Origin: a virus
Reading direction: 5' to 3' (one strand)
Virus record (IMG/VR): IMGVR_UViG_3300030329_005540
Location: 1-64,000 of that record
Length of the DNA: 64,000 nt
Shown one piece after another: positions 25,237-43,361 of the stretch (its first letter is position 1; each line of letters starts with the position of its first letter). The notes below the pieces were generated by a model. It ran no database searches. It was not told where the DNA came from and saw nothing but the letters and a program-made list of their open reading frames with translations. A program made the translations under genes and the position numbers.

Positions 25237-25265
25237 ATACTAACACGAGCTTTAAGGATTGTCAA
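25237..25265 (-). promoter_or_regulatory. Leaderless-type promoter of the annealing-protein gene
   Basis: Read on the minus strand: TTGACA (25265-25260), a 17-bp spacer with AAAGC at spacer positions 7-11 and TGT just before the -10, then TAGTAT (25242-25237). The -10 ends 6 nt before the ATG at 25230, so the predicted transcript starts at or within a base of the start codon. Confidence 0.75.
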
Positions 25266-26449
25266 CCCTCTTTTTTGGTTAAGATGCAGTAATTATCAAA
25301 ATCATCCCAAAAGTCGTCACAATCCAGAACAGGCGCTACTTTTTTCTCAAAAGAATTCACGGGCAAGTCCCTCTTCCAAGAAGCTTTATCGTGAAAGACT
25401 TTACCCTGACTCAAAATAAACTTATTTGATTTAAAAAATAACTTTTTATCTTTTAATTTATTATCTTTATCTATCTTGTCTTTGGTAATCTGCTCTCTAT
25501 GTACAATTACCCCGTAATCCATATAATTTCTTTTGTGCTTTGCGATTTGGTCTTCGGGTAATTCGCTGACAAGCGTGTACTGAATCGCGCTGCTCATTAA
25601 AAATTTAATAAAATTAGGTTCATTATCTTCTTTAATTAGATATACTATTTGATTAATATTCTGTTTAAGCTGAGATAATATATTAGGATTAATTGGCTTG
25701 TCAGTAACGACATTAGATTTCATTACAGATAAATTTTCTGCCATACCTTGTTCATTAAAAAGGTAATCCATTCTAATTGAAATATTATTCGGCGGCTGGA
25801 TTCCATAATGTTGAATTGAAACATCAGGTACGATGTTCATCATTCCAAATGGATATGCCGCGCCAATATACTCATAATTATACGGAGAGGTGAAATCGAT
25901 ACCCAACTGCTTACACACTGCCTCGGCCACTTTATCAGGCATGATAGTGTTTATTGTTTTAGGGTTTTCGTTTCTAGAATAAGAAGGCTTGTTCCCCTTT
26001 AGGTCAGCCATTAAATTAACACATTTGGAGTCCTCGCTCCAGTACGGGCCAGATTGGTTCGGGAGCGAGTTAGAGAACAGAGCCACGGTTGGAGTACCGT
26101 TTTTCGACGCAATATCCATTGTCATATCATCCACAGACAAATGGAGCTTGCTTTGCGATAATATGTAAGCTATTTGATTGGCTGATGTTTGTCCCAGAGT
26201 TAGATAGCAGCCGCGCAAAGGCGCATCGTCTTTATGGCCGACCTGCAAGATGCCGATCCCGTGAGAAGACAATATCGGCACGAGCAAATCAACAACCTCT
26301 TGCCAATAATCATATTTTTTAGATTCGGGAGAATTGACCGCTAATAAAGTAATATAATTATCAATAGCTATCGGAAAGAACTTTTCGTAAATGAAAGGTT
26401 CTGATATTTTTGCTCCACAGCTTGTGGCGTATGATTCTACGATATGCAT
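25262..26449 (-). CDS. C-terminal half of a GT9-type (heptosyltransferase-like) glycosyltransferase
   Basis: A 395-residue protein. Residues ~30-190 match the second Rossmann domain of family 9 heptosyltransferases: LLAVNSPESKKYDYW, then ILQVGHKDD, GQTSANQIAYILSQSKLHLSVDDMT and NGTPTVALFSN. The second domain normally binds the nucleotide-sugar donor. The first GT9 domain is missing here, but it is present at the C-terminus of the gene just upstream, whose TAA overlaps this ATG (TAATG). The two products therefore probably act together, or arise from one ancestral gene broken at the domain junction. Residues ~200-395 are of no recognised family. The substrate is likely a heptose, as heptose-activation genes lie further along the window. 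Confidence 0.6.
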   Translation of the reverse strand: MHIVESYATSCGAKISEPFIYEKFFPIAIDNYITLLAVNSPESKKYDYWQEVVDLLVPILSSHGIGILQVGHKDDAPLRGCYLTLGQTSANQIAYILSQSKLHLSVDDMTMDIASKNGTPTVALFSNSLPNQSGPYWSEDSKCVNLMADLKGNKPSYSRNENPKTINTIMPDKVAEAVCKQLGIDFTSPYNYEYIGAAYPFGMMNIVPDVSIQHYGIQPPNNISIRMDYLFNEQGMAENLSVMKSNVVTDKPINPNILSQLKQNINQIVYLIKEDNEPNFIKFLMSSAIQYTLVSELPEDQIAKHKRNYMDYGVIVHREQITKDKIDKDNKLKDKKLFFKSNKFILSQGKVFHDKASWKRDLPVNSFEKKVAPVLDCDDFWDDFDNYCILTKKEG

Positions 26450-28359
26450 TACAAATTAAGTTCGTAAGTTATGTTGTCTTTCCCGTTATGTAGATAGTCG
26501 ATAAATCTTTGCGTTCTACCGAAAGGCAGTAGAGCTATCTCGAAAAAGCCTTTGTGCTCTGCGTTGCCTTCTAGCCAAGCCCAATCCTCCATTTGGGGAA
26601 CGTAAGGAACTACTTTATGTATATGTTCATTACCATCTAAAATCTCCGCATTCTCCTGTTTGGTAGACACGTATAAATTATAATCAGGGTATTGATTTTT
26701 AAGTGATTTAAATATACTTGTAGATAAAAAGACATCACGCGGGCCATCTGGCATAACGTAGATCATTCTTTTACCTTCGTCATCTTCATCTAGAAACTTT
26801 GTAAATTCTACTTTTTCGTTTTCTGCATTTTCTTTTTGCGCGACCTGCCTGAAATATTTTTCGATGTCAGGGCGGCTCATGCCTCTGGCGATTTCATGCA
26901 TCCAATACCTGTGACCGTCATCCTTTTCGTCAACTTCTGGACGCATTAAAATATTATGATAAAGAGCTTTGATCCATTCTGAGTCATCTTCGATTTCCGG
27001 GATTTCCGCTTGGGGATTTTTCTTAACTTCCTCAAGAGAAAAGTCGTATTCGGTAAATGGAGCTTCGTCAATAAACTTTTCTATGAATCCGCCGACATGC
27101 GCTGGGGAGAAATTGTCTATCGCCCATTTACGAGCTTGCTTGCCCATCTTTTGCCTCTTGTCGGGCTTCATCTTAAACACTTTGCCCAACTGCTTGCTAA
27201 TCGATAACGGACTCGTGGAAGCTTTAATAAACTCTGTACCGTGCTCGCGATATTCAGACCAAGCCAACGGCAAAGACTCTGCTCCGTCCTGACACATTTC
27301 TTCACCGCAGCTATAATCAGTCACAAGAGTAATCAACTCTGTAAGCTTCGCTTCTTGAATGGGGATTTCTTGACCGCCAGAGGTGAACGGGTGGCAGTAG
27401 ACATCCATTAAATTATATACTTCATTAAGCTGCTCTTCAGAAACGCCCTCAGAAACGTTTGTAGTGGTGCAGGAATCCTTCGCTCCGCAGTGTCCACATT
27501 GAGTATTCAATCCGTGAAAATGCTGAACAGCATAGTTCCAACACTTTCTGCAAACGTATGTAGTGATGATGTCCTGATGAGAGACTTTATACTCATCAGC
27601 CAACTTCATGATGTTCCAGCCTTCGCCAAAATGCGTATGAAGAAGAAGCTTGGAATTAGAATTGGGATTATTGTTTTGAAATTTTTTAAAGCCCTCTATT
27701 AAATTGGGTACGGATTTCCTGAGTTGGTTTCTGAAAACGAATCCTACAATAAAAGTGTCTTCCGTTATTCCAAACTTTTGTCTAAGTTGCTTTTTAATCT
27801 GGGACGGTAATTTGTAAAAGTTCTCCCCGTCAACTGCTCCGTGCAAAGTCTTGATATGCTCGTGACCCATTTCGTTAAGAGCCTTTGTGGCGAAATCAGA
27901 CCATATCCAATAATTATCTACCTTGGGTGCGACTTGCACTGCCGCTGGCAAGATAGGCAAAGAATCAAGCGTTGTCCACAGAGCCGAGGCGACATGTTTA
28001 AACCACTTTTTTTCAACTGCAAAGTCAATCCCCCAAATGTCTTGCACCGCAATGTAAACATCAGGTTTGACCTCTTGAATAACCTTGTCTAAATTATGCG
28101 CTCCATAACTAGCTAATCGACCAACGTGGGGATCGCGGCCAAGCTCTTTTTGTTCTTGCTCGCTGTCAGGGAGAGTGCCATAGCCCTTCCAAGGCGTCCT
28201 CTGAAGCTGCGGGCTTGACCAAGGGATACCGCAGCAATAATGCACAATATCGTATTTTCCAGTATCGTATAAATAACTCAAAACGGCTTTGGCATTTCGA
28301 CCAAAGCCTGTCTTGGCTAAAGCGTAATCGCTTTGAAAAAGAAGTTTCTTTTTTCTCAT
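26449..28359 (-). CDS. Glycosyltransferase fusion: GT4 with zinc-ribbon insert plus N-terminal GT9 domain
   Basis: A 636-residue protein. Residues ~1-430 are a GT-B enzyme of the GT4 type. They open with the acceptor-side motif SDYALAKTGFGRNA and continue to VGFVFRNQLRKSVPNLIEGF, with the donor-site region CHPFTSGGQEIPIQEAKL. Unusually, a four-Cys zinc ribbon (CRKC...CGHC) interrupts the C-terminal domain near residues 275-300. Residues ~525-636 resemble the first Rossmann domain of GT9: RMIYVMPDGPRDVFLSTSIF, then SLKNQYPDYNLYVST. The protein stops where the GT9 second domain would begin, and that domain is in the next gene. Transcription probably reads through from the SSB-like gene, 1 nt upstream. 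Expected to add a sugar to host or phage glycan. Confidence 0.65.
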   Translation of the reverse strand: MRKKKLLFQSDYALAKTGFGRNAKAVLSYLYDTGKYDIVHYCCGIPWSSPQLQRTPWKGYGTLPDSEQEQKELGRDPHVGRLASYGAHNLDKVIQEVKPDVYIAVQDIWGIDFAVEKKWFKHVASALWTTLDSLPILPAAVQVAPKVDNYWIWSDFATKALNEMGHEHIKTLHGAVDGENFYKLPSQIKKQLRQKFGITEDTFIVGFVFRNQLRKSVPNLIEGFKKFQNNNPNSNSKLLLHTHFGEGWNIMKLADEYKVSHQDIITTYVCRKCWNYAVQHFHGLNTQCGHCGAKDSCTTTNVSEGVSEEQLNEVYNLMDVYCHPFTSGGQEIPIQEAKLTELITLVTDYSCGEEMCQDGAESLPLAWSEYREHGTEFIKASTSPLSISKQLGKVFKMKPDKRQKMGKQARKWAIDNFSPAHVGGFIEKFIDEAPFTEYDFSLEEVKKNPQAEIPEIEDDSEWIKALYHNILMRPEVDEKDDGHRYWMHEIARGMSRPDIEKYFRQVAQKENAENEKVEFTKFLDEDDEGKRMIYVMPDGPRDVFLSTSIFKSLKNQYPDYNLYVSTKQENAEILDGNEHIHKVVPYVPQMEDWAWLEGNAEHKGFFEIALLPFGRTQRFIDYLHNGKDNITYELNL

Positions 28360-28920
28360 TTACCAGACATCCTCATCTGAAAATTCTTCACTTTCAGTTT
28401 GAGGAGCCAGCATACTTTCTTGGGTTTCCTCAACTCTATTATATTGTACTCCTTGAGCAGACCCCTTCTCAAAAGTTTTTTGCATTACTCCGCAAAGAAA
28501 TTCTTTAAGGAGTCTACCGGCGGCATAATCCAGCCCGATATAAAAATTAATTTTATTAACCGAGTCATCTAAGAACTCTTTTTGGATACCGTAAGAGTAC
28601 CCCATGCGTTTTTCGCCCATTACCCACGGCTCGAATTTCATGCGGGTAATCTGTTTAGAGCTTTTGTGGTATCCGTCCCATCTAGCGCTTCGCTCCATAG
28701 CATCCACGATGCCAGCGGCCTCCTCGGCGCTTAGTTTGATTGTGACAGAGCCCTTGGGGTTTCCTTTATTGGCTTTAAACGCGCCTTTACCCGAAGGGCC
28801 AGACTGCTTGATGATGGTAGACATCAAGAAAAAGTCGCCAGTGTCCTTGTCGTATTGCCCGTAAAACGAGCAAGCGGAGCCAGTTTGTTTATTATTTGGC
28901 TTGTAGAATTGTAAGTTCAT
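28360..28920 (-). CDS. Single-stranded DNA-binding protein candidate
   Basis: A 186-residue protein with a compact beta-rich core (residues ~1-115: SACSFYGQYDKD, SVTIKLSAEEAAGIVDAM, ITRMKFEPWVMG). One helix follows, then a disordered end finishing in an acidic tail with a terminal aromatic residue (EEFSDEDVW). An acidic tip closed by Phe or Trp is the partner-docking tail of bacterial SSB and T7 gp2.5. Length, the tail, the strong dedicated promoter and the place between the polymerase and recombination genes all fit an SSB. No OB-fold signature can be proven by eye, and Whirly/PC4-like folds are also possible. Confidence 0.45.
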   Translation of the reverse strand: MNLQFYKPNNKQTGSACSFYGQYDKDTGDFFLMSTIIKQSGPSGKGAFKANKGNPKGSVTIKLSAEEAAGIVDAMERSARWDGYHKSSKQITRMKFEPWVMGEKRMGYSYGIQKEFLDDSVNKINFYIGLDYAAGRLLKEFLCGVMQKTFEKGSAQGVQYNRVEETQESMLAPQTESEEFSDEDVW

Positions 28921-28926
28921 GATCTA

Positions 28927-28955
28927 ATGATAATATAAGCTTTATAATTTGTCAA
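28927..28955 (-). promoter_or_regulatory. Leaderless-type promoter of the SSB-like gene
   Basis: Minus strand: TTGACA (28955-28950), a 17-bp spacer with AAAGC at positions 7-11, TATCAT (28932-28927). The -10 ends 6 nt before the ATG at 28920, so +1 is predicted at the ATG itself. Confidence 0.8.
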
Positions 28956-28958
28956 GTG

Positions 28959-31610
28959 TTAATTAGAGGTTTTTTCGCTCTTCGTTAGGTCTGCGAGACG
29001 GGTATATACGGTATTATCTTGTATGCCTATTGCGTCTGCAAAAACAACGTCATCCATTTTTCTACCTCTGACGATAACGATTTGCCCTTCCTTTGGGAAG
29101 CCGTTATTCATTTCTCTGCACTCTTCCATCTTTCCGGAGAAAATCATCACTTTAATTGATTGGGTTTCATCTCCCACAAAGAGTTTTAGATATGGTGTTT
29201 TCTTGGGCGGTCTGGATACGCCTTGGTAGGGCTTATCCTCGACTTGGCCAATAAATGTGACGTTACTGCCTTCTGGAGTTTCTACTACATCTCGCACATT
29301 AGTCAAGTCTCTGCCCTGTCTAGAAAAAATGTCAATTAAAGACACATTATAAGTATATCCTAACAAATGTTTTTCATAATACCAATTTGCAAATCGTTCA
29401 GACTTCTTATTAATATCATAAATTTCTTTGTATCTCTGACACTTTTTACGGATAGTCGCTACGCGAGTATCTTTGATTAGCGGTTTACCCTTGGAGTCGC
29501 TGGATTCCTTGAGGTTTTTAACTACTCTAACCAAATCATATTCATGCTCATGTGCAATTGGAATCGCCATCTTCTTTTCGCGGGGCGTCAAGATGCTCCA
29601 AAGCTGTGCTTCGTAAACTACCTTGGTACGAGACTGCTTGAATCCTTCCAACGCGCCAGCTTGAATCAGTGGGCATAGCGTGGACAATCCAATACCCGCT
29701 TCCTCGGCAGCTTGAAAGATTTCAAATTTATTTTCGTATTCCTTTTTGAACGAATTTAACTTACTCATTGACTTGTCAGAAATTCCTTTAATGGACAACA
29801 AGCCAAATCGAATGTTATTACCTTCAATTGAAAAATCCATTTTAGATTTGATCAAGTGAGGCTGCAATAATTTAATATCAAAATATTGAAGCTCTTTATG
29901 AATTTTGGAAATTTCATTAATCGGATCAGGCTCGTGCCTCGTCATCTTGAGAAGACTCAAAAAGAATTCCTTGGGATGTTTGAACTTGAGATAAATCGTG
30001 GTCGCGGCTAAAGCTGCGTATGCGATGGAGTGAGATTTATTGAACGAATAGTTAGCTGAATCTTCCAAGACTTTCCATAGAATGTCTGAGATTTCGGGTT
30101 CGAGTTTACTCTCCTTAACCTTTTCGCTGATTTTCTTTTTCCATTTCCTAACTTCGGAAACTTTTTTCTTGCCGACGATCCGCCTGAGAATCTCTGCTTC
30201 GTCAAGAGTAAACCCGATCTTATGAGCCATCTGCATCATTTGCTCTTGATACAAGGCTACTCCTCCTGTCGAAGACAAAATATCATCGAAGAAGGGGTGA
30301 ATTGACTGCTGGGTTCCAGTATTCGCATAGTTAGCGTACTGGTCAACGAAGGCCAACGCTCCGGGTCTCGCCAATGCAAGAACCGCACTCAACTCTTCTA
30401 AATTTTTAGGTTTAACCTTTTGACAAACGTGGAAATTGGTATCTGCTTCAATTTGAAACAACCCGTGTGGAGTTCTTAAATTCTGAAGCTCCCTGTAAAT
30501 GAAGGGGTCATTGAGGTCAATATCATCGATATTAATCCCAATGGTTTTACATGCGTCATCAACCACCGAAACGCTTCTCAAACCGAGGATATCGAGCTTG
30601 ACATTAAACTCGGAAATCCAGTTCATGTCGTAAGATGCTACGCTGCCTTTTTTGTCAGAGGTAAGCTCTGTTGGGCAGCTATCCTTCATCATGTCATACG
30701 AAATAGACACTGCGGATGGGTGAACCCCTTTGTTTTTAATCAGCCCTCTGAGCTTTAGCGCGATATTGTAAACGTCACTGTTGTCATCACACCACTCTCT
30801 AAACTCATCTACTTCTTCGTATGAGGATTCAAGACTTTTAACTTGACCAAAGACTTTGGGAATCAGCGCAGATACATTGTTCATATCTGCATCGCTGTGG
30901 TCTGCTACGATTTTACCGCACTCTTTCATCAAGAGCTTGGTACTCAAGGTGTTGAAGGTTAAAATCTTGCTGGTCTTGCCGTCGAATTTGCTTTCAAGAT
31001 ATTCGATTACCTTTTGTCGGTTATAGTAACAAATATCTAAATCAACGTCACACATAAGCGAGCCGTCAAGATATGTTACGCCATCGACAACCTTTTTCTT
31101 GGCGCGAATCTTCGAAACGAACCTTTCAAAATACAGCCCATATTTCACTGGATCGATTCTAGTAACGCCGACGAAATACAAAACCAAACTACCTGCGGCA
31201 GAGCCACGCCCAAGACCCGTGGGAATATCATTCTTCTTACAGTAGTTGACGACATCCCATACAAGAAGCACGTAATCAATGAAGCCTAACTCTTTTAGAG
31301 TATCTAGCTCGTACTTGACTCGCGAAACGTACTCGTCATACTCTTCAGTACCTTTTTTGAGATTGATTTTTTTAAACCCATTAAGACAAAGGGCTCTGAG
31401 GAAATCGTAGTTGTTTATATCTTCGCTGACTTTAGCGCGATGCTTTTCTTCAGCGGGGATTTCAAACGAGGGCAAGCGAACACCGTGTAGGTCTAGCTTG
31501 ACTCCTTTAAAATTATCTTGAAAGTTGGCTGCGCTCAAATTACCGACGACGTTTTTTGTTTTTCGACGTGGACTTTTTCGCGGGTTGGATACTTTTAAAC
31601 TCATTATCAT
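28959..31610 (-). CDS. dnaE: DNA polymerase III alpha, catalytic (Pol/thumb/OB) part of a split DnaE
   Basis: An 883-residue protein covering DnaE from just after the PHP domain to the OB fold. Residues ~133-145 have the palm motif GLGRGSAAGSLVLY. CDVDLD at 187-192 supplies the two catalytic Asp (190, 192), and VKLDILGLR supplies the third (340), so the polymerase should be active. Finger and thumb segments follow, including ALARPGALAFVDQYA and YSFNKSHSIAYA. The OB domain (VTFIGQVEDK...IKVMIFSG) ends near 870. The PHP domain is absent here and is encoded by a separate gene about 2.5 kb upstream, with an HNH gene, an exonuclease and two small genes between. The start overlaps the preceding 80-codon gene by 71 nt. 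The enzyme copies the phage genome together with the helicase and primase of the same block. Confidence 0.9.
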   Translation of the reverse strand: MIMSLKVSNPRKSPRRKTKNVVGNLSAANFQDNFKGVKLDLHGVRLPSFEIPAEEKHRAKVSEDINNYDFLRALCLNGFKKINLKKGTEEYDEYVSRVKYELDTLKELGFIDYVLLVWDVVNYCKKNDIPTGLGRGSAAGSLVLYFVGVTRIDPVKYGLYFERFVSKIRAKKKVVDGVTYLDGSLMCDVDLDICYYNRQKVIEYLESKFDGKTSKILTFNTLSTKLLMKECGKIVADHSDADMNNVSALIPKVFGQVKSLESSYEEVDEFREWCDDNSDVYNIALKLRGLIKNKGVHPSAVSISYDMMKDSCPTELTSDKKGSVASYDMNWISEFNVKLDILGLRSVSVVDDACKTIGINIDDIDLNDPFIYRELQNLRTPHGLFQIEADTNFHVCQKVKPKNLEELSAVLALARPGALAFVDQYANYANTGTQQSIHPFFDDILSSTGGVALYQEQMMQMAHKIGFTLDEAEILRRIVGKKKVSEVRKWKKKISEKVKESKLEPEISDILWKVLEDSANYSFNKSHSIAYAALAATTIYLKFKHPKEFFLSLLKMTRHEPDPINEISKIHKELQYFDIKLLQPHLIKSKMDFSIEGNNIRFGLLSIKGISDKSMSKLNSFKKEYENKFEIFQAAEEAGIGLSTLCPLIQAGALEGFKQSRTKVVYEAQLWSILTPREKKMAIPIAHEHEYDLVRVVKNLKESSDSKGKPLIKDTRVATIRKKCQRYKEIYDINKKSERFANWYYEKHLLGYTYNVSLIDIFSRQGRDLTNVRDVVETPEGSNVTFIGQVEDKPYQGVSRPPKKTPYLKLFVGDETQSIKVMIFSGKMEECREMNNGFPKEGQIVIVRGRKMDDVVFADAIGIQDNTVYTRLADLTKSEKTSN

Positions 31611-31782
31611 CCATTTCAGTTAAGGCTTCATTTACATACTCTATAGAATCTTCATCTTGAAATTTATAAAAGATATCAGCCTTTTTTTCACTTCTATCGT
31701 GTCGTAAAGTAATCAGAAAATAGTCAACTTCCTTCTCTTCCAATTCTTTAATTAAATCTAAAATTTTATCTAATCTTTCCAC
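31540..31782 (-). CDS. Small charged protein upstream of split dnaE
   Basis: An 80-residue protein starting at GTG, directly served by a consensus promoter whose -10 ends 6 nt before that GTG. The N-terminal 45 residues are helical and acidic/basic mixed, and the end is a Lys/Arg-rich tail (KKSTSKNKKRRR). It overlaps the start of the polymerase gene by 71 nt and probably couples its translation. No family is recognised. The basic tail could contact nucleic acid. Confidence 0.6.
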   Translation of the reverse strand: MERLDKILDLIKELEEKEVDYFLITLRHDRSEKKADIFYKFQDEDSIEYVNEALTEMDDNEFKSIQPAKKSTSKNKKRRR

Positions 31783-31788
31783 GGTTTT

Positions 31789-31817
31789 AATTTAGCATGC
31801 GCTTTGATTGTTGTCAA
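31789..31817 (-). promoter_or_regulatory. Leaderless-type promoter for the 80-aa gene and dnaE
   Basis: Minus strand: TTGACA (31817-31812), a 17-bp spacer with AAAGC at positions 7-11 and TGC before the -10, TAAATT (31794-31789). The -10 ends 6 nt before the GTG start at 31782. Confidence 0.75.
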
Positions 31818-31819
31818 GA

Positions 31820-32458: not shown

Positions 32459-32461
32459 TAT

Positions 32462-33932: not shown

Positions 33933-34091
33933 TTATTTCACCAAATACCCACCAATGTTTTGAGAAAGAATTTTAAGAGTATCTAATTCTTTTTTTCTCT
34001 CTTTTTCATCTTTAATTTTTTTAATTCTATCATATTCATCACAAATATAATCTACTGTAATTTTTTCTTTTACTTGTACTTTCTTAGGCAT
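33933..34091 (-). CDS. Small charged helical protein
   Basis: About 52 residues from the ATG at 34091, which overlaps the stop of the PHP gene by 8 nt. An earlier ATG at 34127 lies deep inside the PHP gene and is less likely. The sequence starts MPKKVQVKEKITV and continues as one long Lys/Glu-rich helix. Function unknown. It precedes the HNH gene by 4 nt. Confidence 0.45.
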   Translation of the reverse strand: MPKKVQVKEKITVDYICDEYDRIKKIKDEKERKKELDTLKILSQNIGGYLVK

Positions 34092-34848
34092 TTTTCTCGC
34101 TCCAGCTTTCCATGCAGAATTGGTCACTGCACATATGTTCTAGTTCGGGTTTACTCAGAGTGCTTCGGTTATTAATGCATCTGAAAGTCAAATAAGCTTT
34201 AAAATCTTTTTTATCCTTATAATAAATACTCTTAGTTTTAATTGTATTGTAATCGTTCTTCTCGCAGTAACTCTTCACCTTCTCTTCGACCAAGTAATCG
34301 AATGGCAAATCATTACTCTCCAAGAAAAACGTTGGCTCGGTAAAATCAAAGTTAGGAACACAAATAGAAGATGTTAATAGGTTCTTATAAATAAAAGAAT
34401 CATAAAAAGGAATACATAATTGTAAATCATTATTATCCCAATATTTTTCTAGAATTTGAAAGTCTACTCGCGGTACGTAATAAAAGCCTAACTTGTGGGA
34501 ATCTGAGGCGATTTTGATGAGCCGTTGATATCCTTCAGTATTCTTGCACAGAATGACATATTTAGAAGACTTGCTCACGGCGTCTTCCGATTTCTCTTCT
34601 ACCGTTGGGCAAACTGTAACTCTGAGGCCGAAAACCAGATCGATTTTCTTTTCGGATAGACTGTCGTATGCCTGTAAGAATCCAGACATAGAATCTTCCA
34701 CCATAAAAATCTTACTTAAATTATTTTCTACGGCGATATCTACAATCGAATCGGGGCCAGACTCTTCTGAAGAGCCAGCTTTTTCTAAAGTTAAGATACT
34801 TCTGCCAAGAGAGTACTGAGACTTGAACAATGGTAAAATGTCATCCAT
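34084..34848 (-). CDS. Detached PHP domain of DNA polymerase III alpha, metal site degenerate
   Basis: About 254 residues from the ATG at 34848. The frame opens at 34866, but that lies inside the -10 box. The text follows the DnaE N-terminus: LFKSQYSLGRSILTLEKAG where DnaE has the HSDYS motif, then IVDIAVENNLSKIFMVED, LVFGLRVTV, YVILCKNTEGYQRLIKIAS, and at the end TLSKPELEHMCSDQFCMES. That last part matches the DnaE stretch just before the polymerase palm. The metal-binding His and Asp of PHP motif I are Lys and Gln here, so phosphoesterase activity is probably lost. It presumably binds the separately encoded catalytic part as a structural subunit. Confidence 0.75.
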   Translation of the reverse strand: MDDILPLFKSQYSLGRSILTLEKAGSSEESGPDSIVDIAVENNLSKIFMVEDSMSGFLQAYDSLSEKKIDLVFGLRVTVCPTVEEKSEDAVSKSSKYVILCKNTEGYQRLIKIASDSHKLGFYYVPRVDFQILEKYWDNNDLQLCIPFYDSFIYKNLLTSSICVPNFDFTEPTFFLESNDLPFDYLVEEKVKSYCEKNDYNTIKTKSIYYKDKKDFKAYLTFRCINNRSTLSKPELEHMCSDQFCMESWSEKNA

Positions 34849-34856
34849 TAAAAACG

Positions 34857-34885
34857 ATTTTAGCAAGAGCTTTACGTTGTGTCAA
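34857..34885 (-). promoter_or_regulatory. Leaderless-type promoter of the PHP gene
   Basis: Minus strand: TTGACA (34885-34880), a 17-bp spacer with AAAGC at positions 7-11 and TGC before the -10, TAAAAT (34862-34857). Eight nt separate the -10 from the ATG at 34848, so the leader would be about 1-3 nt. Confidence 0.8.
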
Positions 34886-35911: not shown

Positions 35912-36792
35912 GATAAAATTTCCTCCTTAGTCATTTCTCCAAAGTCGCAAGACCCTTCTGGGATAGCGACATGGATTTGCTCGGGATCGAAGTGTCTGGC
36001 TAATTTAGCGCAAGCTTTTTCAGCAGCTTGATTACCAGCCGAGCTTTTTTGTTCATCATTATTAAAAGCAATAAATATATGATCTATGTCAATTCTGAGA
36101 AGGTAGCTGATCACAGCTACGCTCACTTCGAGTCCGAAAGTAACCATCGTATTTTTAATTCCGCAGTCCCACAAGGCGAGCATATCTCCTATGCTTTCAA
36201 CTAGGATAACCTGTTTCTCGCTTCGTAAAATCTTATTGTTAATTTGAAGCGGGTATTTCCACTCACTTTTTACGCCTATGTGTTTCCACTTTGGGTTACG
36301 ATCTACTATCGATCTCCCAGAAACGCCAACCAATTCTTTTTTGTAATTATAAATTGGAAAAATGTACCTGTCTTTCATCTTGCCTACGCCCACAACCCCG
36401 CCTTCAAAAACAGAAACAGTATCTTCCGACACGCCTCTGTTTATCCAATAAGAATGATCTTTGCTTAATTTTAAAAGGCATTCTTTATTGAACGTTTTGA
36501 TTTGTTTGAGCGTGGGTTTGACTACGGCCTCTTTTCTTTCAGAAGAATAAGATGTATTGGACAACCATTTTTCGGCATCATTTACAGATTCGAGTTTAAG
36601 AGATAGTTGAACCAAATCTTGTAAAGAGCCTTTGATGTTACGGCTAAAGTCGATAAAGTAGCCCGTGTCCTTTCGCACACTAAGAACAGTATTACTGCTT
36701 GAGTCTCGATAAAGAGGCTTCATGCGGTAATTTCTACTGTCTTCGGTAATATTGCTATAACCGAGGCTTAATAATATTTCTTTAACGTCCAT
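35869..36792 (-). CDS. DnaG-like primase with Toprim domain and no zinc ligands
   Basis: A 307-residue protein. Residues ~20-65 follow the fold of a CHC2 zinc domain (MKPLYRDSSSNTVLSV, then GYFIDFSRNIKGSLQDLVQ), but the Cys/His ligands are replaced. Residues ~135-260 hold the catalytic core. It includes YIFPIYNYKKELVGVSGR, the Toprim Glu motif VILVESIGDML (Glu 199) and IAFNNDE (Asp 246). It is much shorter than bacterial DnaG (~580 aa) and lacks the helicase-binding C-terminal domain. It follows the helicase gene with a TAATG overlap, so the two are co-translated and presumably act together at the fork. Confidence 0.8.
   Translation of the reverse strand: MDVKEILLSLGYSNITEDSRNYRMKPLYRDSSSNTVLSVRKDTGYFIDFSRNIKGSLQDLVQLSLKLESVNDAEKWLSNTSYSSERKEAVVKPTLKQIKTFNKECLLKLSKDHSYWINRGVSEDTVSVFEGGVVGVGKMKDRYIFPIYNYKKELVGVSGRSIVDRNPKWKHIGVKSEWKYPLQINNKILRSEKQVILVESIGDMLALWDCGIKNTMVTFGLEVSVAVISYLLRIDIDHIFIAFNNDEQKSSAGNQAAEKACAKLARHFDPEQIHVAIPEGSCDFGEMTKEEILSWKKKYYQLQEPSF
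35922..35928 (-). promoter_or_regulatory. Ribosome binding site of the RecB-like nuclease
   Basis: AAGGAGG on the minus strand, 10 nt before the ATG at 35911. It lies within the coding end of the primase gene and decides the start despite the 43-nt overlap. Confidence 0.8.
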
Positions 36793-38285
36793 TAGAATTC
36801 TGTGGGGCCATCGTTTTCGCTATGGTCTACATCTTGACCGCGCTCACTTTGTTCTTCCACGATATCCCGTAAAGAACCTCTTTCTTCAACTCCGAAATTC
36901 TCACAGTTGAAGTTCAGATAATTGCTGTACCATCTTATCGTGCCGTTTTCAGAAGCTCTACGAACCAAGTCGTGATGCCCTGCGGCTTGCTGGCCCTGAA
37001 AGCGTGTTTTGAGAGGTATCAATTTGTGCGAGCCTCTGGCTTCTCCATCTTCACCAATTTCATCTAACGTCTTTCTTCTAAAGATGCCTACAAAACTGGC
37101 AAACCATTGAAGTCTATCAGACAACGAAATCGCAGATGAATCATCCACCATCGCGCCGCTAGAACCCGCTTCGCCGCTTCTGTTCATTTGCATCGCTGTA
37201 ATAAGAGGGGCGTTGATTTCTTCGGCTACCTTTTTCAGCTTGTCAACCTTGTCACCTATAGCTTGGTATTCTCCCCAGTTTTGAGCTACTCTTTCACCCG
37301 TTAGTTTCACATAATCGTATGCAATGATGCATGGATTACCTCTACCAACATGAGTTAAGTACCATCGGCGTATCAAGGACACGATTTGGTCTACGTTTTT
37401 ATTTCCTACGAAAGCGTGATAACACTGATACCCTTTTTCTTTTATAGCTTTCAATCCGCTCCGAGTTCTAGCTGTAAGCTCCTCGCTTTTGCGGAAGTTA
37501 CCCGTTTCTAAATACCAAGGGGAAACATTTGTAAACGCCGACGCCATTCTAAATTGAATGTCCATCGTAGCCATCTCTGTGTCCAGCAAAAGAACTGGAA
37601 CATTATTGAGATGTCCTGTTCTGATACATAAATTATTAATCCATGTAGTCTTGCCTTGTCCGGGTCTCGATACAATCGCGTATACGTTTCCGGGTCTTAG
37701 TCCTCCGTACAAATTGTTAAACTCTTGCCAAGGCGTTTTAAATCCAAAGTCCGTTTGGGGGTTATTGCCTCTCTCTTCAACTAATTCTTCAATTCCGTCG
37801 AACAAATCGACGGGTTCATCATCTAATGCGTATTTTCTCATATTTTCGTTATACATTTCATCGCAAGATGCGATTATTTCATCTACTCCGACATTGCCGC
37901 ATTTGCGTACAAACTCGGAAACATTACTCACTGATTCTAAAATCTCTCTTCTTATCTTATATTTTTTAAGTTCTTTAGCCGCCTCTACGGTAGCTTCTTT
38001 TGTGATATAAGTGAAAGAAATCTCATCAATGTACCTATAAATTTCAATATCGTCTTTGAAAGTAATTCCTAAATTTTGAATCTTCTCCGAAAGAAGTACC
38101 TTATCCAGTTTTTGACCTGCTGCTAGAATGCTACGAATAACACAAAATATTGTATTATGAACATCAAAGTAAAAATCTTTTTCAGTAATAAACTTCTCAA
38201 GATCGGGGAAGATAGACTCGTTGTTAATTAAACCTCCTAAAACATGCTTCTCAATCCGCTGCGAATAAATTTGTCCTTTTTCCAT
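36792..38285 (-). CDS. DnaB-like replicative helicase
   Basis: A 497-residue protein of normal DnaB length. Residues ~1-95 are the helical N-terminal domain (IEKHVLGGLINNESIFPDL). The RecA-like motor contains Walker A SRPGQGKTT at 206-214, then PVLLLDTEM, Walker B CIIAYDYVKL and the sensor helix APLITAMQMN. The last ~30 residues are acidic. It should unwind DNA at the phage fork and recruit the primase encoded by the next gene (TAATG overlap). Its own promoter lies 9 nt before the ATG, so the leader is only a few bases and there is no ribosome site. Confidence 0.92.
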   Translation of the reverse strand: MEKGQIYSQRIEKHVLGGLINNESIFPDLEKFITEKDFYFDVHNTIFCVIRSILAAGQKLDKVLLSEKIQNLGITFKDDIEIYRYIDEISFTYITKEATVEAAKELKKYKIRREILESVSNVSEFVRKCGNVGVDEIIASCDEMYNENMRKYALDDEPVDLFDGIEELVEERGNNPQTDFGFKTPWQEFNNLYGGLRPGNVYAIVSRPGQGKTTWINNLCIRTGHLNNVPVLLLDTEMATMDIQFRMASAFTNVSPWYLETGNFRKSEELTARTRSGLKAIKEKGYQCYHAFVGNKNVDQIVSLIRRWYLTHVGRGNPCIIAYDYVKLTGERVAQNWGEYQAIGDKVDKLKKVAEEINAPLITAMQMNRSGEAGSSGAMVDDSSAISLSDRLQWFASFVGIFRRKTLDEIGEDGEARGSHKLIPLKTRFQGQQAAGHHDLVRRASENGTIRWYSNYLNFNCENFGVEERGSLRDIVEEQSERGQDVDHSENDGPTEF

Positions 38286-38294
38286 ACAACGGAT

Positions 38295-38323
38295 ATGATA
38301 ACACCTGCTTTAGCTGGCGTCAA
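38295..38323 (-). promoter_or_regulatory. Leaderless-type promoter of the helicase-primase-nuclease operon
   Basis: Minus strand: TTGACG (38323-38318), a 17-bp spacer with AAAGC at positions 7-11 and TGT before the -10, TATCAT (38300-38295). Nine nt separate the -10 from the ATG at 38285. Confidence 0.8.
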
Positions 38324-38336
38324 GAGAAATTTTGAA

Positions 38337-38591
38337 TTATTCTGCTTCTTCTTCGCCTTCTTCGGGCTCGATGAAAGACGCTACTAGGGACTCCACGTTG
38401 ACTTCTTCCATAGTTTTGGACCAAGTACCTACATAGTTTTGTAGTGCGAGAAGCTCTGTCACAGTATCGCATTGCGAATGAGCAACAGGCGTACCGTCAG
38501 CATCAATAGTAAACAAAATAAATCCGCCGTTAGAACATTCATTAATTTGATCTAACGTCTTTTGTGGGAATGTAAAATTTTTATCACTCAC
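38337..38591 (-). CDS. Small acidic protein of unknown function
   Basis: An 84-residue protein starting at GTG. The middle is beta-like (GGFILFTIDADGTPVAH), then a helix (TELLALQNYVGTWSK), then a strongly acidic end (EPEEGEEEAE). Family not recognised. It has its own promoter with an overlapping inverted repeat, which suggests regulated expression, and lies between the helicase operon and a nuclease gene. Confidence 0.6.
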   Translation of the reverse strand: MSDKNFTFPQKTLDQINECSNGGFILFTIDADGTPVAHSQCDTVTELLALQNYVGTWSKTMEEVNVESLVASFIEPEEGEEEAE

Positions 38592-38601
38592 AATAGTATT
38601 T

Positions 38602-38636
38602 ACACTATTATAGTGTCACATCAAAATGCTTTTCAA
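38602..38636 (-). promoter_or_regulatory. Promoter with overlapping inverted-repeat operator
   Basis: Minus strand: TTGAAA (38636-38631), an 18-bp spacer and TATAAT (38612-38607). The -10 lies inside a perfect inverted repeat with 7-bp arms ACACTAT/ATAGTGT around one base (38602-38616), placed as a repressor would need to block the polymerase. The -35 is inside the end of the upstream nuclease gene. It drives the small acidic gene. Confidence 0.6.
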
Positions 38637-39024
38637 AGAATTCTTTGTTTAGTTTATTAAGTTCACCCTCGTTTATTTCAATTAATTTAAATCCATTTTT
38701 ATCAAGCCAAGAAGCTTTTTCAAAGTCTCGTTTTATTGCTTTCAAATACTCTAATCTAGAATTATTATGAAAGAATTTATTGAACTCTGTATGCTGACGA
38801 CCCTGAACTTCTACCGCGATTTTCTTAGTGGCGTTGAGTATATCTACCGTCATGCGTGAGCCATAAACAGGAAACTCTTCGTAAACGATATGGTTCTTCC
38901 AAAATTGTTTAAGAAATTGTTTTACTTGAAATTGTATTTTAGAACGAGATTTAGCATCCCATTTTATGAGATACTTAGTAACCTTTCGGCTTTGGGGTCT
39001 ACCGTGTATATTGATTAATCTCAT
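38608..39024 (-). CDS. PD-(D/E)XK endonuclease, Holliday-resolvase/Vsr-like
   Basis: A 138-residue protein. The core reads VYEEFPVYGSRMTVDILNAT followed by KKIAVEVQGRQHTEF, giving the E...D...E-x-Q pattern of small restriction-like nucleases (DUF559, Vsr, T7 endonuclease I type). The C-terminal segment DFEKASWLDKNGFKLIEI, with a helix before a strand, is typical of these folds. The N-terminal 40 residues are basic. It probably cuts recombination or replication junctions. It overlaps the phosphatase gene by one base. Confidence 0.65.
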   Translation of the reverse strand: MRLINIHGRPQSRKVTKYLIKWDAKSRSKIQFQVKQFLKQFWKNHIVYEEFPVYGSRMTVDILNATKKIAVEVQGRQHTEFNKFFHNNSRLEYLKAIKRDFEKASWLDKNGFKLIEINEGELNKLNKEFFEKHFDVTL

Positions 39025-39716
39025 TATTTACCCGTGAAGAAAGCTGGAGCTAAAACTTTTTCAGCTAAGTATATAGAGAAATCATTATCGCTTGGGAAAT
39101 GGACTCCTTCATAGATTCTGGAATCCGCCACCATTTTAGCGGCTTGCAAGAATTGATTCTTAAAAGCTGGATACATATTAGAGCAAATAAAAGCTGCAAA
39201 ATATGCAGATAATGTGTGTCCGCTTGGATAGGACGGAGTGCTTGCTGTGCCTTTTTGGATGGCGTCGTTATATTTTATATCGATGCCGTGATGAGGGGCT
39301 AGTTGATACGGTCTAGGTCTGTTATAATATAGTTTTAACTTCATCGCCAATGTATCAGAATCCTGCATAACTAGCCTTCTGATATCGTCATCCGGAATCT
39401 TTTCTCCAATTAGCTTTTCGTGCAGATCGTATACGAATCCAGCAGGGGCAGCATCCATCTTTTCAAGACTAGAAGTAAAATCCTTAGAATGTTTTTTTTG
39501 TTCTATGAATTTTTTAATATATAAAAGCTCCTGCTTGGTTTGCTCACTTGAATTCGAAGGTGGCGGCATTTTCAGCAGATTTTCGATGCTTATGTCTAAG
39601 TGGACGAGCTTTCTCTCGGAATAGTCTTTGCGAGGATTTTTACCATCATAAACTAACTCGTCTAGTTTTTTAGCCTTAATATCCTCAGAAAAATCTATTT
39701 CGAAATTTTGCTTCAT
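39024..39716 (-). CDS. PAP2-family acid phosphatase
   Basis: A 230-residue protein with the complete three-part PAP2 signature: KLKLYYNRPRP (K-x6-RP), PSYPSGHTLSA (PSGH) and SRIYEGVHFPSDND (SR-x5-H-x3-D). It lacks a signal peptide and membrane helices, so it resembles the soluble class A acid phosphatase/vanadium haloperoxidase branch acting in the cytoplasm. The N-terminal ~90 residues are charged and unique. The ribosome site AAAGGA lies just before the ATG. Substrate unknown. A nucleotide, a sugar phosphate or a lipid pyrophosphate are options, the last being attractive given the phage's glycan genes. Confidence 0.75.
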   Translation of the reverse strand: MKQNFEIDFSEDIKAKKLDELVYDGKNPRKDYSERKLVHLDISIENLLKMPPPSNSSEQTKQELLYIKKFIEQKKHSKDFTSSLEKMDAAPAGFVYDLHEKLIGEKIPDDDIRRLVMQDSDTLAMKLKLYYNRPRPYQLAPHHGIDIKYNDAIQKGTASTPSYPSGHTLSAYFAAFICSNMYPAFKNQFLQAAKMVADSRIYEGVHFPSDNDFSIYLAEKVLAPAFFTGK

Positions 39717-39748
39717 TTTTAATCCTTTTATAGATTTACACTTAAAAT

Positions 39749-40156
39749 TGGTGGAGGCGGCGGGAATCGAACCCGCGTCTTTAGAACCATCGGCCTAAAT
39801 ATGCTACAAGCTTATCCGGTTTAATACGATACGTGTCTGAAACCGGCAACTTCACGTAAAGTTTGGTCTATCTTTTTTTAAACTACTGGAGACTCAACCA
39901 GACTCAACCAGTGTTTTGCTCGTTATCGACGCCCTAGCTCCTTAACGAGCATCCAGAGTAGGACGGGTAGCTACGCAGCTACAGCAGCCTCTTCAGCCCA
40001 ACCAAACTGAGCGAGAATCGCATCAGCTTCGTCAAGCGAAGGAGCCATATCAACATTATTGGCAGTTGAATACCTTGATAGATGATTTAAGAGGCCGACT
40101 ATCATCCTCTGCTTGCAATTCGGCGTAAGACCCCAAATCGAATCCAGTACGCCCCC
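39749..40156 (-). ncRNA. ssrA: tmRNA
   Basis: A 408-nt RNA. The 5' end GGGGGCG pairs with CGCCTCC before an encoded CCA, with a G-U at the third pair, which is the alanine identity signal. The 3' part has a canonical T arm (GCGGG TTCGATT CCCGC). The 5' part contains GTACTGGATTCGA as in bacterial tmRNAs. A first pseudoknot is visible: stem AGAGG/CCTCT with GATGAT in its loop pairing to ATCATC downstream. A tag reading frame follows. A 10-bp tandem repeat (39891-39910) lies in the later pseudoknot region. It would rescue stalled ribosomes and tag unfinished proteins for degradation during infection. Circular permutation is not indicated. Confidence 0.93.
39971..40063 (-). other. tmRNA tag reading frame (about 30 codons)
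   Basis: From a GCC resume codon the frame reads ANNVDMAPSL...EEAAVAA and ends in TAG. The terminal AVAA resembles the ClpXP/ClpAP degron end of known tags (ALAA). At about 30 residues it is clearly longer than usual tags (8-20, rarely more). The stop is certain. The resume codon is inferred from the ANN start and its place 17 nt after pseudoknot 1. TCA at 40069 would be the same frame two codons earlier. Confidence 0.65.
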
Positions 40157-40163
40157 ATATAAA

Positions 40164-40191
40164 ATTCTACACTTATTTATTTAATTTTCAA
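40164..40191 (-). promoter_or_regulatory. Probable tmRNA promoter
   Basis: Minus strand: TTGAAA (40191-40186), 16-bp spacer, TAGAAT (40169-40164), then 7 nt to the tmRNA 5' end at 40156. Overlaps the end of the adjacent HNH gene. Confidence 0.6.
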
Positions 40192-40851
40192 TTCTTTTTT
40201 CGTTTTACGCGCAAGATCATTGTTGGCCCAAACACCATTTAATTGCTCTGGCCATTTTTCAGGATCATAGTCGTGTCTTTTTACTGAGTTTTTATGGTTG
40301 CTTATAACTTGTAAATTATCTTGATGATGCGCCCCTCCTTTGGCTAAAGGTATTATATGATCCACTACATATTTTCTACCTGCTTTAGAAGATCGGCGGC
40401 GAGCATCCTCGTAAAAGGCTTTCATTTTTTCTTCGTCTGAATCAGGCAGTATGGCGTTGATTTTTATAGCCGCTCTCTTTTTTGCCAAAGCGTTCATTAA
40501 TGGCCTATTGTTTTTTTTATAATTAGAATTATACTCGGCAACGTGATCAGCATTTTTTCCGCGCCATTTTTTCATGGACTTAGCTCGTTCTTTACTGTTC
40601 TTTTTCCTATATTCTTTTACCCTCTCTTTGTTTTTTTCACACCAAATTCGACAATATTCTCTATTTTTTTTTCTATTTTCAGGCCTTGCGTTGTACGCCC
40701 TTCTGCGGGCACGTACTTTTTCTTTTTTCTCTTCTGGTAAACTATGAAACCTTTCACGATCCTGTTTTGCTCGGCATGAGCCACAGGTCGCTCTGTGTTT
40801 TCCGAATTTCGAAGTAGGCTTTTCTTCTTTGCATCTACGACAAATCTTCAT
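40177..40851 (-). CDS. HNH endonuclease next to tmRNA
   Basis: A 224-residue protein. The start has a zinc ribbon (CRRCKEEK...CGSCRAK), the middle ~80 residues are a Lys/Arg/Asn-rich helix with YNARPEN and YRKKN text, and the end carries the HNH core VVDHIIPLAKGGAHHQDNLQ with a trailing HKNSVK. That is the D-H...N...N arrangement of a typical free-standing HNH enzyme. It lies directly upstream of the tmRNA gene and 2 nt after recA. It is probably a homing-type mobile gene that uses this region as insertion point. Confidence 0.85.
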   Translation of the reverse strand: MKICRRCKEEKPTSKFGKHRATCGSCRAKQDRERFHSLPEEKKEKVRARRRAYNARPENRKKNREYCRIWCEKNKERVKEYRKKNSKERAKSMKKWRGKNADHVAEYNSNYKKNNRPLMNALAKKRAAIKINAILPDSDEEKMKAFYEDARRRSSKAGRKYVVDHIIPLAKGGAHHQDNLQVISNHKNSVKRHDYDPEKWPEQLNGVWANNDLARKTKKELKIK

Positions 40852-40852
40852 A

Positions 40853-41947
40853 TCAAGATTTCTTTAAAGTGTCTCTAAATTTATTAAACAAATACTTGCC
40901 AATTTCTTTATTCTCTTCGAAGTATTTTCTAAGGTTATCAATACCTTGGTGCTGTTGTTTAAACTCTAAGCCGGTTTCTTGTTTGACCTCTTCGATAAGT
41001 TCTTCTGAAACAGTCACCCAAGCACCAGCCTTTTTAGCCATGTCCCAAGCGAGCATCATATCAACTACCTCGTACTCCACCCAAATACTTTTACCGCCGA
41101 CGCGGCCATAGCGAATAGGGTATCTTACTTCTATCCCCGTTTTTTCATTTGCGCTTTTACGGAAAACTACTTTACAATAATGACCAAGGTGATCGCCCTT
41201 ACCATTCGGCTGAGTAGTGATTAAATCTTTTACGTAGCGAGGCTGAAACTCTAAAATCCAATCACTGTAATGTAATATTGCGTTGCCTCCAGAAGCATTG
41301 GTCAATCTTGGGTCAGTTTTTTCATACGGGTTAATACTAACTTTGCTTCTAACTTGAGAAATCATATAACAAATATGTCCTCGGGTAGCTAAACCCAACG
41401 CCATTCTTTTTAGGAAGTCCGATGTCAAAAGAGAACCGCCAGCTACTTTAACTGCTTCGTCAGACCCTTTTTCTAAATCACCTCTGGGAACCAAAGCATC
41501 CATAGAGTCAATGATAAACATGTATCTTGTATCAGAAGGATTATCTTTGACCATCTGCCGAATAAAATCAATAACGGTTTCGTAAACATTGCATTTGAAC
41601 ACGAACCACTTATTTTCATCTGTATCTACTCCCGATCTCTCTACCATATCTGTAGACAGTCTTCCTTCGGACTTGATGTAGACGACCATAGAGTTATCCA
41701 TTTTTTGAAAGTTGCGGGCAAAGGATAACGAGCACGAAGTCTTTCCTCCTTCTGCTACTCCTGAAGCTCTAATTATTCCGGGTTTAATACCGCCGCCCAT
41801 TTCAATGTCCATTAAAAGGCTGCCGCTGGATATAGTATATTCTCTCTCTTCTTCGAAATTATAATGATCCCCTTTATGTTCTTTGAGGTACGCTTGAATT
41901 TGCTCTAGGGGAGAGGTCGATACGGTCTCTGTTTTCTTTTTTCTCAT
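40853..41947 (-). CDS. RecA/UvsX-type recombinase
   Basis: A 364-residue RecA-family ATPase. Walker A is GVAEGGKTS at 63-71. The catalytic Glu region is YIKSEGRLS, Walker B is MFIIDSMDALVP, and loop 1/2 text includes ISQVRSKVSINPYEK and TNASGGNAILHYSD. Length and order match bacterial RecA, but the N-terminus is shorter and the C-terminal ~60 residues are distinct. It performs strand exchange in phage recombination and repair. It overlaps the gp33-like gene by 4 nt and is probably co-transcribed with it. Confidence 0.88.
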   Translation of the reverse strand: MRKKKTETVSTSPLEQIQAYLKEHKGDHYNFEEEREYTISSGSLLMDIEMGGGIKPGIIRASGVAEGGKTSCSLSFARNFQKMDNSMVVYIKSEGRLSTDMVERSGVDTDENKWFVFKCNVYETVIDFIRQMVKDNPSDTRYMFIIDSMDALVPRGDLEKGSDEAVKVAGGSLLTSDFLKRMALGLATRGHICYMISQVRSKVSINPYEKTDPRLTNASGGNAILHYSDWILEFQPRYVKDLITTQPNGKGDHLGHYCKVVFRKSANEKTGIEVRYPIRYGRVGGKSIWVEYEVVDMMLAWDMAKKAGAWVTVSEELIEEVKQETGLEFKQQHQGIDNLRKYFEENKEIGKYLFNKFRDTLKKS

Positions 41948-42300
41948 TTTAAAAAGTCTAATAGATTTTTGGGTTTGGATTCTATCTGTTTATCTTCTCC
42001 TACTTTTTCGTCGCCTAACTGAAAAACGACGGGATCAAACCCTTTTAGGTCAATATTTTTTTTGTATTTAATTAAATACGTCTTACCTTCGTCGCTTAAA
42101 AACCAAGCAAGACTATTCAACTTAAAGGGAAGATACAGTTTTGTCCAGAACTTTTCTTCAGAAATATACTCAAACAACTTTTTAGCGATTGCCATCTCGC
42201 GTTTAACAACGCCGCGATTATTCCACACCTTTTCCGGCTCTTTGCAGAACTTGGAAATTAATCTTTGATATTTATTGGGCCTCCGCTTGGATTTTCGCAT
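41944..42300 (-). CDS. T4 gp33-like late transcription accessory protein candidate
   Basis: A 118-residue basic protein (MRKSKRRPNKYQRLISKF), with a helical middle (LPFKLNSLAWFLSDEGKTYL) and the C-terminal end KNLLDFLK. T4 gp33 is of similar size (about 112 aa) and ends in TLDFLL, its sliding-clamp docking peptide; gp55 and gp43 end similarly. The match in size and tail suggests a clamp-dependent late transcription co-activator. The clamp and gp55 are not in this window, and the middle is not recognisably gp33. It has a promoter inside the gmd coding end and is coupled to recA. Confidence 0.4.
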   Translation of the reverse strand: MRKSKRRPNKYQRLISKFCKEPEKVWNNRGVVKREMAIAKKLFEYISEEKFWTKLYLPFKLNSLAWFLSDEGKTYLIKYKKNIDLKGFDPVVFQLGDEKVGEDKQIESKPKNLLDFLK

Positions 42301-43361
42301 TGTAAATCATATTTTACCATACGCTTTACAAGATCGTCAAATGAAATTTTCGGCCTCCACCCTAATTCAGACATGGCTTCGCTTGGGTCTCCCCATAATA
42401 AATCAACTTCAGCGGGTCGATAAAACTCAGAATTAACCTTGACCAAGGTATATTTATGTGGCCCCGCCAATCTGACATATTTTTCCTCTAAGCCTTCTCC
42501 CTCCCAATCACATGGCCCGAATCCGGCGGCAGCAAAAGCTTTTTCTACAAATTCTCTGATAGAATGAGTCTCTCCGCTAGCTAAAAGATAATCTTTAGGA
42601 TCGTCTTGATTGAGCATCAACCAAATACCCTTTACGAAATCTTCGCTGTCGCTCCAATCTCTTTTCGCGTCTAAATTGCCTAATTCAATTGTGCTATGTT
42701 TTTTACACTGACCTTTTCTATCGCTCCAAGTTCTGCTAAAGTTGTTAATTTGAAAAAATAATTTAGCCACGCCTTTGGAAATTTTTCTAGTAACGAACTC
42801 TTCGCCACGCTTTGTGCCTTCGTGGTTGAACAAAAGGCCATGAACTGCGTACATATCATAAGACTCTCGGTATACTTTAACAAGGTGAGCCGCCGCGCAT
42901 TTAGATGCCCCATAAGGACTGCGAGGTTTCATTGGGTGCTTCATGTCTTGGGGGGAATAGTCTACGTCGCCAAATTGTTCACTGCTCCCTGCGCTATAAA
43001 ATCTACAATCTGGTTTATACTTGCGGATTGCTTCTAAGCAGCGTATGACTCCTCCGGTATTAGTGTCCAATACGTGAAGAGGCATATCCCAGCTACATCC
43101 AACAAAAGAATTTGCTGCGAAATTGATAAAATAATCAGGTTGAATTTCTTGAACTAATTTGTCTATACTAATTTCATCGGTTAGGTCTCCATAAACTAAC
43201 TGAAAATTTTCATCATCTAAGAAACTCTTACAGTTGACGAAGTTCGGGTTAGAGCTTCTTCTAATCATGCCGAATACCTTATGACCCCTATCTCTAAGGA
43301 GGTACTCGCACATATTCGCCCCGTCTTGGCCCGTTATACCTGTAACTAAAACTTTTCTCAT
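42258..43361 (-). CDS. gmd: GDP-mannose 4,6-dehydratase
   Basis: A 367-residue short-chain dehydrogenase of full length. It has the NAD(P) loop GITGQDGANMCEYLL (residues ~7-21), the FAANSFVGCSW active-site loop, and the catalytic pair in SPYGASKCAA (Tyr-x3-Lys). The substrate-specific NHEGTKRGEEFVTRKI also matches Gmd. It converts GDP-D-mannose to GDP-4-keto-6-deoxymannose, the first step to GDP-L-fucose. The next gene performs the second step. The 3' end overlaps the gp33-like gene by 43 nt. Confidence 0.93.
   Translation of the reverse strand: MRKVLVTGITGQDGANMCEYLLRDRGHKVFGMIRRSSNPNFVNCKSFLDDENFQLVYGDLTDEISIDKLVQEIQPDYFINFAANSFVGCSWDMPLHVLDTNTGGVIRCLEAIRKYKPDCRFYSAGSSEQFGDVDYSPQDMKHPMKPRSPYGASKCAAAHLVKVYRESYDMYAVHGLLFNHEGTKRGEEFVTRKISKGVAKLFFQINNFSRTWSDRKGQCKKHSTIELGNLDAKRDWSDSEDFVKGIWLMLNQDDPKDYLLASGETHSIREFVEKAFAAAGFGPCDWEGEGLEEKYVRLAGPHKYTLVKVNSEFYRPAEVDLLWGDPSEAMSELGWRPKISFDDLVKRMVKYDLQCENPSGGPINIKD
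42311..42340 (-). promoter_or_regulatory. Leaderless-type promoter of the gp33-like/recA pair, inside gmd
   Basis: Minus strand: TTGACG (42340-42335), an 18-bp spacer containing AAAGC, TAAAAT (42316-42311). Ten nt separate the -10 from the ATG at 42300, so a leader of about 4 nt is expected. The whole site lies within the 3' coding part of gmd. Confidence 0.65.

Follow-up and report, generated by a model that had tools for sequence, protein, structure and literature searches.

A near-invariant spacer word in sigma70-type promoters of an uncultured phage and its replacement in related phages

Gene setting and promoter sites

The window analysed here comprises the first 64,000 bases of G000, an 85,675-base IMG/VR viral contig of an uncultured phage, and the contig-wide motif counts given below cover all of G000 (85.7 kb), window included. 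Phage-type replication genes are present in the window (DnaE, a PHP gene, DnaB, a Toprim primase, a PD-(D/E)XK nuclease and RecA), together with a class I ribonucleotide reductase, a tmRNA and a large sugar operon. The genes that matter for the promoters are:

24523-25230, minus strand: 235-aa gene of unknown function, target of promoter 25265; its G176 ortholog is 47% identical
28360-28920, minus strand: 186-aa gene of unknown function, target of promoter 28955, followed by glycosyltransferase genes
28959-31610, minus strand: DNA polymerase III alpha, DnaE-type, with the PHP domain encoded apart
34084-34848, minus strand: PHP-domain protein, 254 aa, target of promoter 34885
36792-38285, minus strand: DnaB-type replicative helicase, target of promoter 38323
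40853-41947, minus strand: RecA-family protein, downstream of the doubtful site 42340
42258-43361, minus strand: GDP-mannose dehydratase gene, whose 3' coding end contains site 42340
59219-61693, minus strand: NrdA, with a possible further family member upstream

DNA polymerase III alpha appears split in this phage, the PHP domain (34084-34848, minus strand) being a gene separate from 28959-31610 (minus strand). The phage-borne tmRNA (39749-40156, minus strand) has an unusually long predicted tag (ANNVDMAPSLDEADAILAQFGWAEEAAVAA).

The initial annotation had described a family of six promoters sharing AAAGC in the spacer, and each of the six sequences was found where it had been placed. They are given here with one possible further member:

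25237-25265, minus strand: promoter 25265, TTGACA-ATCCTT-AAAGC-TCGTGT-TAGTAT, ATG at 25230, 6 nt past the -10
28927-28955, minus strand: promoter 28955, TTGACA-AATTAT-AAAGC-TTATAT-TATCAT, ATG at 28920, 6 nt past the -10
31789-31817, minus strand: promoter 31817, TTGACA-ACAATC-AAAGC-GCATGC-TAAATT, GTG at 31782, 6 nt past the -10
34857-34885, minus strand: promoter 34885, TTGACA-CAACGT-AAAGC-TCTTGC-TAAAAT, ATG at 34848, 8 nt past the -10
38295-38323, minus strand: promoter 38323, TTGACG-CCAGCT-AAAGC-AGGTGT-TATCAT, ATG at 38285, 9 nt past the -10
42311-42340, minus strand: site 42340, doubtful, TTGACG-N7-AAAGC-N6-TAAAAT with an 18-bp spacer, ATG at 42300, 10 nt past the -10
61709-61725, minus strand: possible member upstream of NrdA, AAAGT-N6-TAATAT with no recognisable -35, ATG 15 nt past the -10

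Five members in the window are solid, but site 42340, which precedes a 118-aa ORF and then RecA, is counted as doubtful because it sits within conserved coding sequence and alone has an 18-bp spacer. It falls inside the C-terminal coding sequence of the GDP-mannose dehydratase gene, where TTTGAC, GTAAAG and GTAAAA are codons of the protein motif ISFDDLVKRMVKYD, which is conserved in the more distant relatives of the phage, so that coding constraint probably explains the site to a large extent.

The proposal that all of these promoters drive replication and recombination genes holds for the units of DnaB, primase and PD-(D/E)XK nuclease (promoter 38323), of the PHP-domain gene and an exonuclease (34885), and of an 80-aa ORF followed by DnaE (31817), but not demonstrably for promoters 25265 and 28955 with their targets of unknown function. 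Contig-wide it is only partly true, because targets elsewhere include a non-coding RNA and, among others, nucleotide-sugar genes. As had been reported, AAAGC is absent upstream of the tmRNA, the sugar operon and the small-acidic-gene.

The distance from the end of the -10 to the start codon at the six window sites is only 6, 6, 6, 8, 9 and 10 nt, leaving no room for a Shine-Dalgarno sequence, with the start codon near the expected start site; an exception in the contig is the plus-strand site 68711, at 17 nt. Very short gene junctions are filled by these promoters, and at promoter 25265 the TGA stop codon of the preceding gene even overlaps the TTGACA -35. Since transcription initiates approximately 6-7 nt after the -10, the window mRNAs would, judged from this spacing, be leaderless, a feature missed in the earlier description.

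The spacer word across the contig and in related phages

A whole-genome search for TTGAC-N7/8-AAAGC-N6-TAnnnT, as had been proposed to check the family, returned nine matches in the contig against 0.025 expected (mean of 200 first-order Markov simulations, maximum 1). AAAGC occurs in nine of the 18 TTGAC-N17/18-TAnnnT sites of G000, and the gap to the -10 is exactly 6 in all nine. The members beyond the window are:

64557, minus strand: strict site
66703, minus strand: strict site
68711, plus strand: strict site
71307, plus strand: near member, AAAGA
74508, plus strand: near member, TTGCCC at the -35

They precede genes of 95, 284 and 87 aa (the last a short way upstream of the sigma-like gene P0001), a structured non-coding RNA and a nucleotidyltransferase/phosphomannomutase pair. 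The non-coding RNA of approximately 380 nt follows promoter 66703 (L008:2280-2669, contig ~66280-66669, minus strand), ends in a GC-rich terminator and folds better than shuffled sequences (z -3.35); an orthologous RNA is present in the related phages G176 and G177, and no Rfam family was found for it.

Tabulating ten G000 sites by position, we observed AAAG at -23 to -20 in all ten, C at -19 in nine and T at -24 in nine, the base before AAAGC being a pyrimidine in every case, while positions -29 to -25 and -18 to -16 vary. The element given previously as AAAGC is better written as TAAAGC. TG, noted before the -10 in four of the six window sites, occupies -15/-14 in seven of the ten, as in extended -10/TRTG promoters, a similarity that does not explain the word at -24 to -19. 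The -35 is intact and the -10 is weak (TAnnnT, never TATAAT), and the two elements, 17 +/- 1 bp apart, are of sigma70 type (TTGACA-like and TAnnnT). The word may be phased to the -10 in preference to the -35, although in G000 the doubtful 18-bp site 42340 is the sole support for this. Across the genome TAAAGC is not enriched (74 observed, 74.7 expected), which argues for a promoter part and against an operator scattered over the genome.

G001, the single close relative (19.3 kb, at 74-78% nucleotide identity), carries GAAGC, AAAGC, AAAGC, GAAGT and AAAGT in the slot at five syntenic promoters, that is RAAGY, and neighbouring spacer bases have drifted between the two phages; the orthologs of promoters 38323, 28955 and 31817 have GAAGC, GAAGT and AAAGC, respectively. 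The more distant cousins G176, G177 and G179 (~35-65% protein identity) keep the promoters but not AAAGC, and the same slot carries another fixed word, [AC]AGAA, found as AAGAA (four times) and CAGAA (once) in G176 and as CAGAA (three times), AAGAA (once) and CAGAC (once) in G177. Followed through orthologous promoters, the slot words are:

PHP gene: AAAGC in G000, AAAGC in G001, AAGAA in G176, CAGAC in G177, CAAGG in G179
24523-25230 gene: AAAGC in G000, AAAGT in G001, AAGAA in G176, CAGAA in G177 (there beside a non-TA -10)
non-coding RNA: AAAGC in G000, AAGAA in G176, AAGAA in G177
NrdA: CAGAA in G176 and G177

The conserved position of the slot, together with a sequence changed in concert, implies a trans-acting reader, and the word is, on this comparison, probably read by something that starts transcription.

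Recurrence in an unrelated phage and in bacterial promoters

G182 is a 68-kb tailed phage with a terminase, a portal-like protein, RIIA and ThyX, for which blastp against G000 at E 1e-5 gave no match. Even so, 11 of its 20 TTGAC-N17/18-TAnnnT sites carry AAAGC (seven) or AAAGT (four), with a gap of 6 in all, and its word-bearing promoters are mostly leaderless. A scan of viral sequences with a stricter motif returned 64 stretches, with several only from G182 and two at only a few other loci. A promoter family with a spacer element beyond the sigma70 consensus, as first suggested for the window, is thus well supported: it lies above chance, is conserved in the close relative, recurs in G182 and is replaced in the cousins. 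Chance or a selection effect of the reader, to which the probable coding constraint at 42340 would lend something, has a negligible probability, as nine matches stand where 0.025 are expected and the slot is conserved in G001 and found again in G182, and is already refuted for the sites other than 42340.

The idea that leaderless phage promoters in general require AAAGC was rejected, with none among 123 strong ones in an unbiased viral sample, selected for TG and TAT around the -10; in addition, the 19 leaderless promoters in 14.8 kb of L445 have neither AAAGC nor any other fixed word. Other leaderless phages fix spacer text elsewhere, e.g., L262 (TTGACA(A)ATTAGA) and L500. Such cases, and the pyrimidine-purine step, A-run and G shared by all ten G000 sites, would suit a word that only sets DNA shape or curvature; alternatively, the word could reflect recent copying of one promoter, in either case with no direct reading. 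We regard this as very unlikely, because the sites have entirely different spacer flanks, which speaks against recent copying, and because a pure shape effect would call for neither GC at -20/-19 nor a single fixed word in each lineage.

Bacterial promoters were compared in clades that are candidate hosts and may not include the host of G000. In unbiased samples, which were restricted to promoters with TG and TAT around the -10 and are therefore a close but not identical comparison to the G000 sites, the exact word stood in the slot in two of 134 strong leaderless promoters of Saccharimonadia and, among the matches listed, in about one of ~150 in Microgenomatia and none of 62 in Omnitrophota. 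The strict pattern gave 47 matches in 147 Saccharimonadia genomes against three for a reversed control, ~35 against nine in Omnitrophota and 21 against ~6 in Patescibacteria at large; reversal controls poorly here, since apparent enrichment is to be expected for any 5-mer that lies within a genuine promoter. A host-wide motif was rejected on the rarity of the word in the unbiased samples. The best NrdA matches, to Saccharibacteria (37%) and Arcicella (38%), were too weak to name a host.

Some Saccharibacteria loci, e.g., L147, L166, L206 and L223, have rare promoters of the form TTGACA-N6-AAAGCTTATGCTAnnnT. These are fully or almost leaderless, precede hypothetical genes that are mostly confined to the lineage, and may form a small regulon. 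A conserved promoter family at Lachnospiraceae loci (e.g., L137, L155 and L231) also contains AAAGC, and the sequence downstream of it resembles rRNA operon leaders.

Candidate readers of the word

Sigma genes in G000 and in G182, where the protein is RpoD-like, mean that a phage-coded reader is available. The two of G000 lie beyond the window (both in L008):

74939-75670, plus strand: P0001, sigma70-family, ECF-like
64558-65157, minus strand: P0002, sigma70-family with regions 2 and 4, conserved in G176 and G177

A phage-encoded sigma, instead of that of the host, might recognise the whole promoter including the word. The RpoD-like sigma of G182, with its canonical region 4.2 (LTRERIRQI), could read TTGACA, and G000 carries its two sigma-like proteins; however, neither is an obvious TTGACA reader, P0001 being ECF-like and region 4 of P0002, by inspection, being without the TTGACA-reading residues of sigma70. 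Moreover, the sigmas of the two phages differ in type, and phage sigmas usually read non-canonical promoters, so that we consider this explanation improbable. A search of viral contigs for relatives of P0001 returned none, and P0002 is conserved across the phage family at ~33-35% identity.

We favour a reading in which these are leaderless sigma70-type promoters whose word is a Z-element-like contact of the initiating RNA polymerase, a strong -35 offsetting a weak -10, and we put its chances at about even. The Z-element (Yuzenkova et al. 2011, per PMC10911233) lies at -22 to -18 and overlaps the G000 word at -23 to -19 in four positions; it has a loose AACCT consensus, has been linked to beta' Y47/R48 and, with an intact -35, is reported to make promoters usable whose -10 is weak (review, PMC10911233). 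In an open complex with sigma-H, the beta' zinc-binding domain contacts -23 and the beta' zipper -20/-19 (PMC6411747). The word spans these beta'-contacted positions and the promoters combine a strong -35 with a weak -10, which is why a Z-element-like contact is favoured; by its position the word would suit contacts of the core enzyme (zinc-binding domain and zipper of beta') more than contact by sigma. Such a promoter would have four parts, namely an intact -35 (TTGAC), TAAAGC from -24 to -19, TG at -15/-14 in most sites, and a -10 that is weak. The word would be read by the initiating polymerase, most likely through the beta' zinc-binding domain at -23 and the beta' zipper at -20/-19, letting the strong -35 compensate for the weak -10, and transcription would start ~6-10 nt past the -10, at or beside the start codon, giving a leaderless mRNA.

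Like the Z-element, the phage word begins with A's and stands in promoters with an intact -35 and a weak -10, but the Z-element follows a loose consensus and does not keep to one sequence throughout a promoter family, whereas the phage word is strict in each lineage. Nor is AACCT matched, as positions -22 to -18 read AAGC plus a variable base in G000 and AGAA in the cousins. Against the Z-element-like reading also stand the rarity of the word in strong leaderless promoters of the candidate host clades and the published contacts themselves, which are to the backbone and by themselves do not explain sequence specificity. The availability of phage sigmas as readers and the reliance of the -10 phasing in G000 on site 42340 count against it as well. 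Because G000 and G182 have the word in common without shared proteins, a host-side reader is favoured, and the different word of the cousins would then reflect different hosts; a lineage-specific word would mirror the host polymerase that is met, or a polymerase carrying a phage sigma.

Another possibility, plausible at somewhat less than even chances, is a strict third promoter slot at -23 to -19, with a word that is fixed per lineage and switched in concert by a co-evolving reader, be it a polymerase beta' variant, a phage sigma or a phage cofactor, amounting to a lineage-specific promoter code. If true, such a code could keep phage and host transcription apart. Of the promoter spacer, it is generally the length that is considered important, its sequence effects being seen as loose, and a strict word, its same-slot replacement in cousins and the independent case of G182 together offer a comparative system for asking whether the core reads the spacer in a sequence-specific way. 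In uncultured viruses, leaderless units of phage transcription may be recognisable by the word, which could possibly also link phages that share a host.

Middle promoters of T4 have a MotA box, TGCTTTA, near -30. TAAAGC is the reverse complement of GCTTTA, and in both cases a phage word replaces or adds to sigma contacts, yet the G000 word has the opposite orientation, lies ~8 bp further downstream (at -21) and leaves the -35 intact. A search for a MotA-like protein, run without a positive control, found none.

This bears on a phage-encoded regulator (an activator, repressor or sigma-associated protein) that would read the word and switch the promoters together, its specificity having drifted by lineage, a tentative explanation that we hold to be rather unlikely. 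It accommodates the concerted change of the word at orthologous promoters (24523-25230 gene, PHP gene), its rarity in the host samples and the conservation of the sigma-like P0002 across the family, and has a precedent in L5-type repressors, which bind asymmetric promoter sites as monomers (PMC9283540). However, G182 has the word without any detectable shared protein, 5-6 bp is short for a dedicated operator, the word exceeds chance only in the promoter slot and not as scattered operators, and the MotA-like search was negative. L5-type operators and stoperators are likewise short, asymmetric, oriented and tied to promoters, with lineage-specific variants, but they measure 13 bp and also occur in intergenic DNA away from promoters (PMC9283540). 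The G000 word, which is not contiguous with the -35, shows no such excess at non-promoter intergenic sites, as the genome-wide count of TAAAGC indicates. The viral contig L579, of another leaderless phage, carries a fixed spacer text, TTGACATCC, that by contrast resembles a stoperator.
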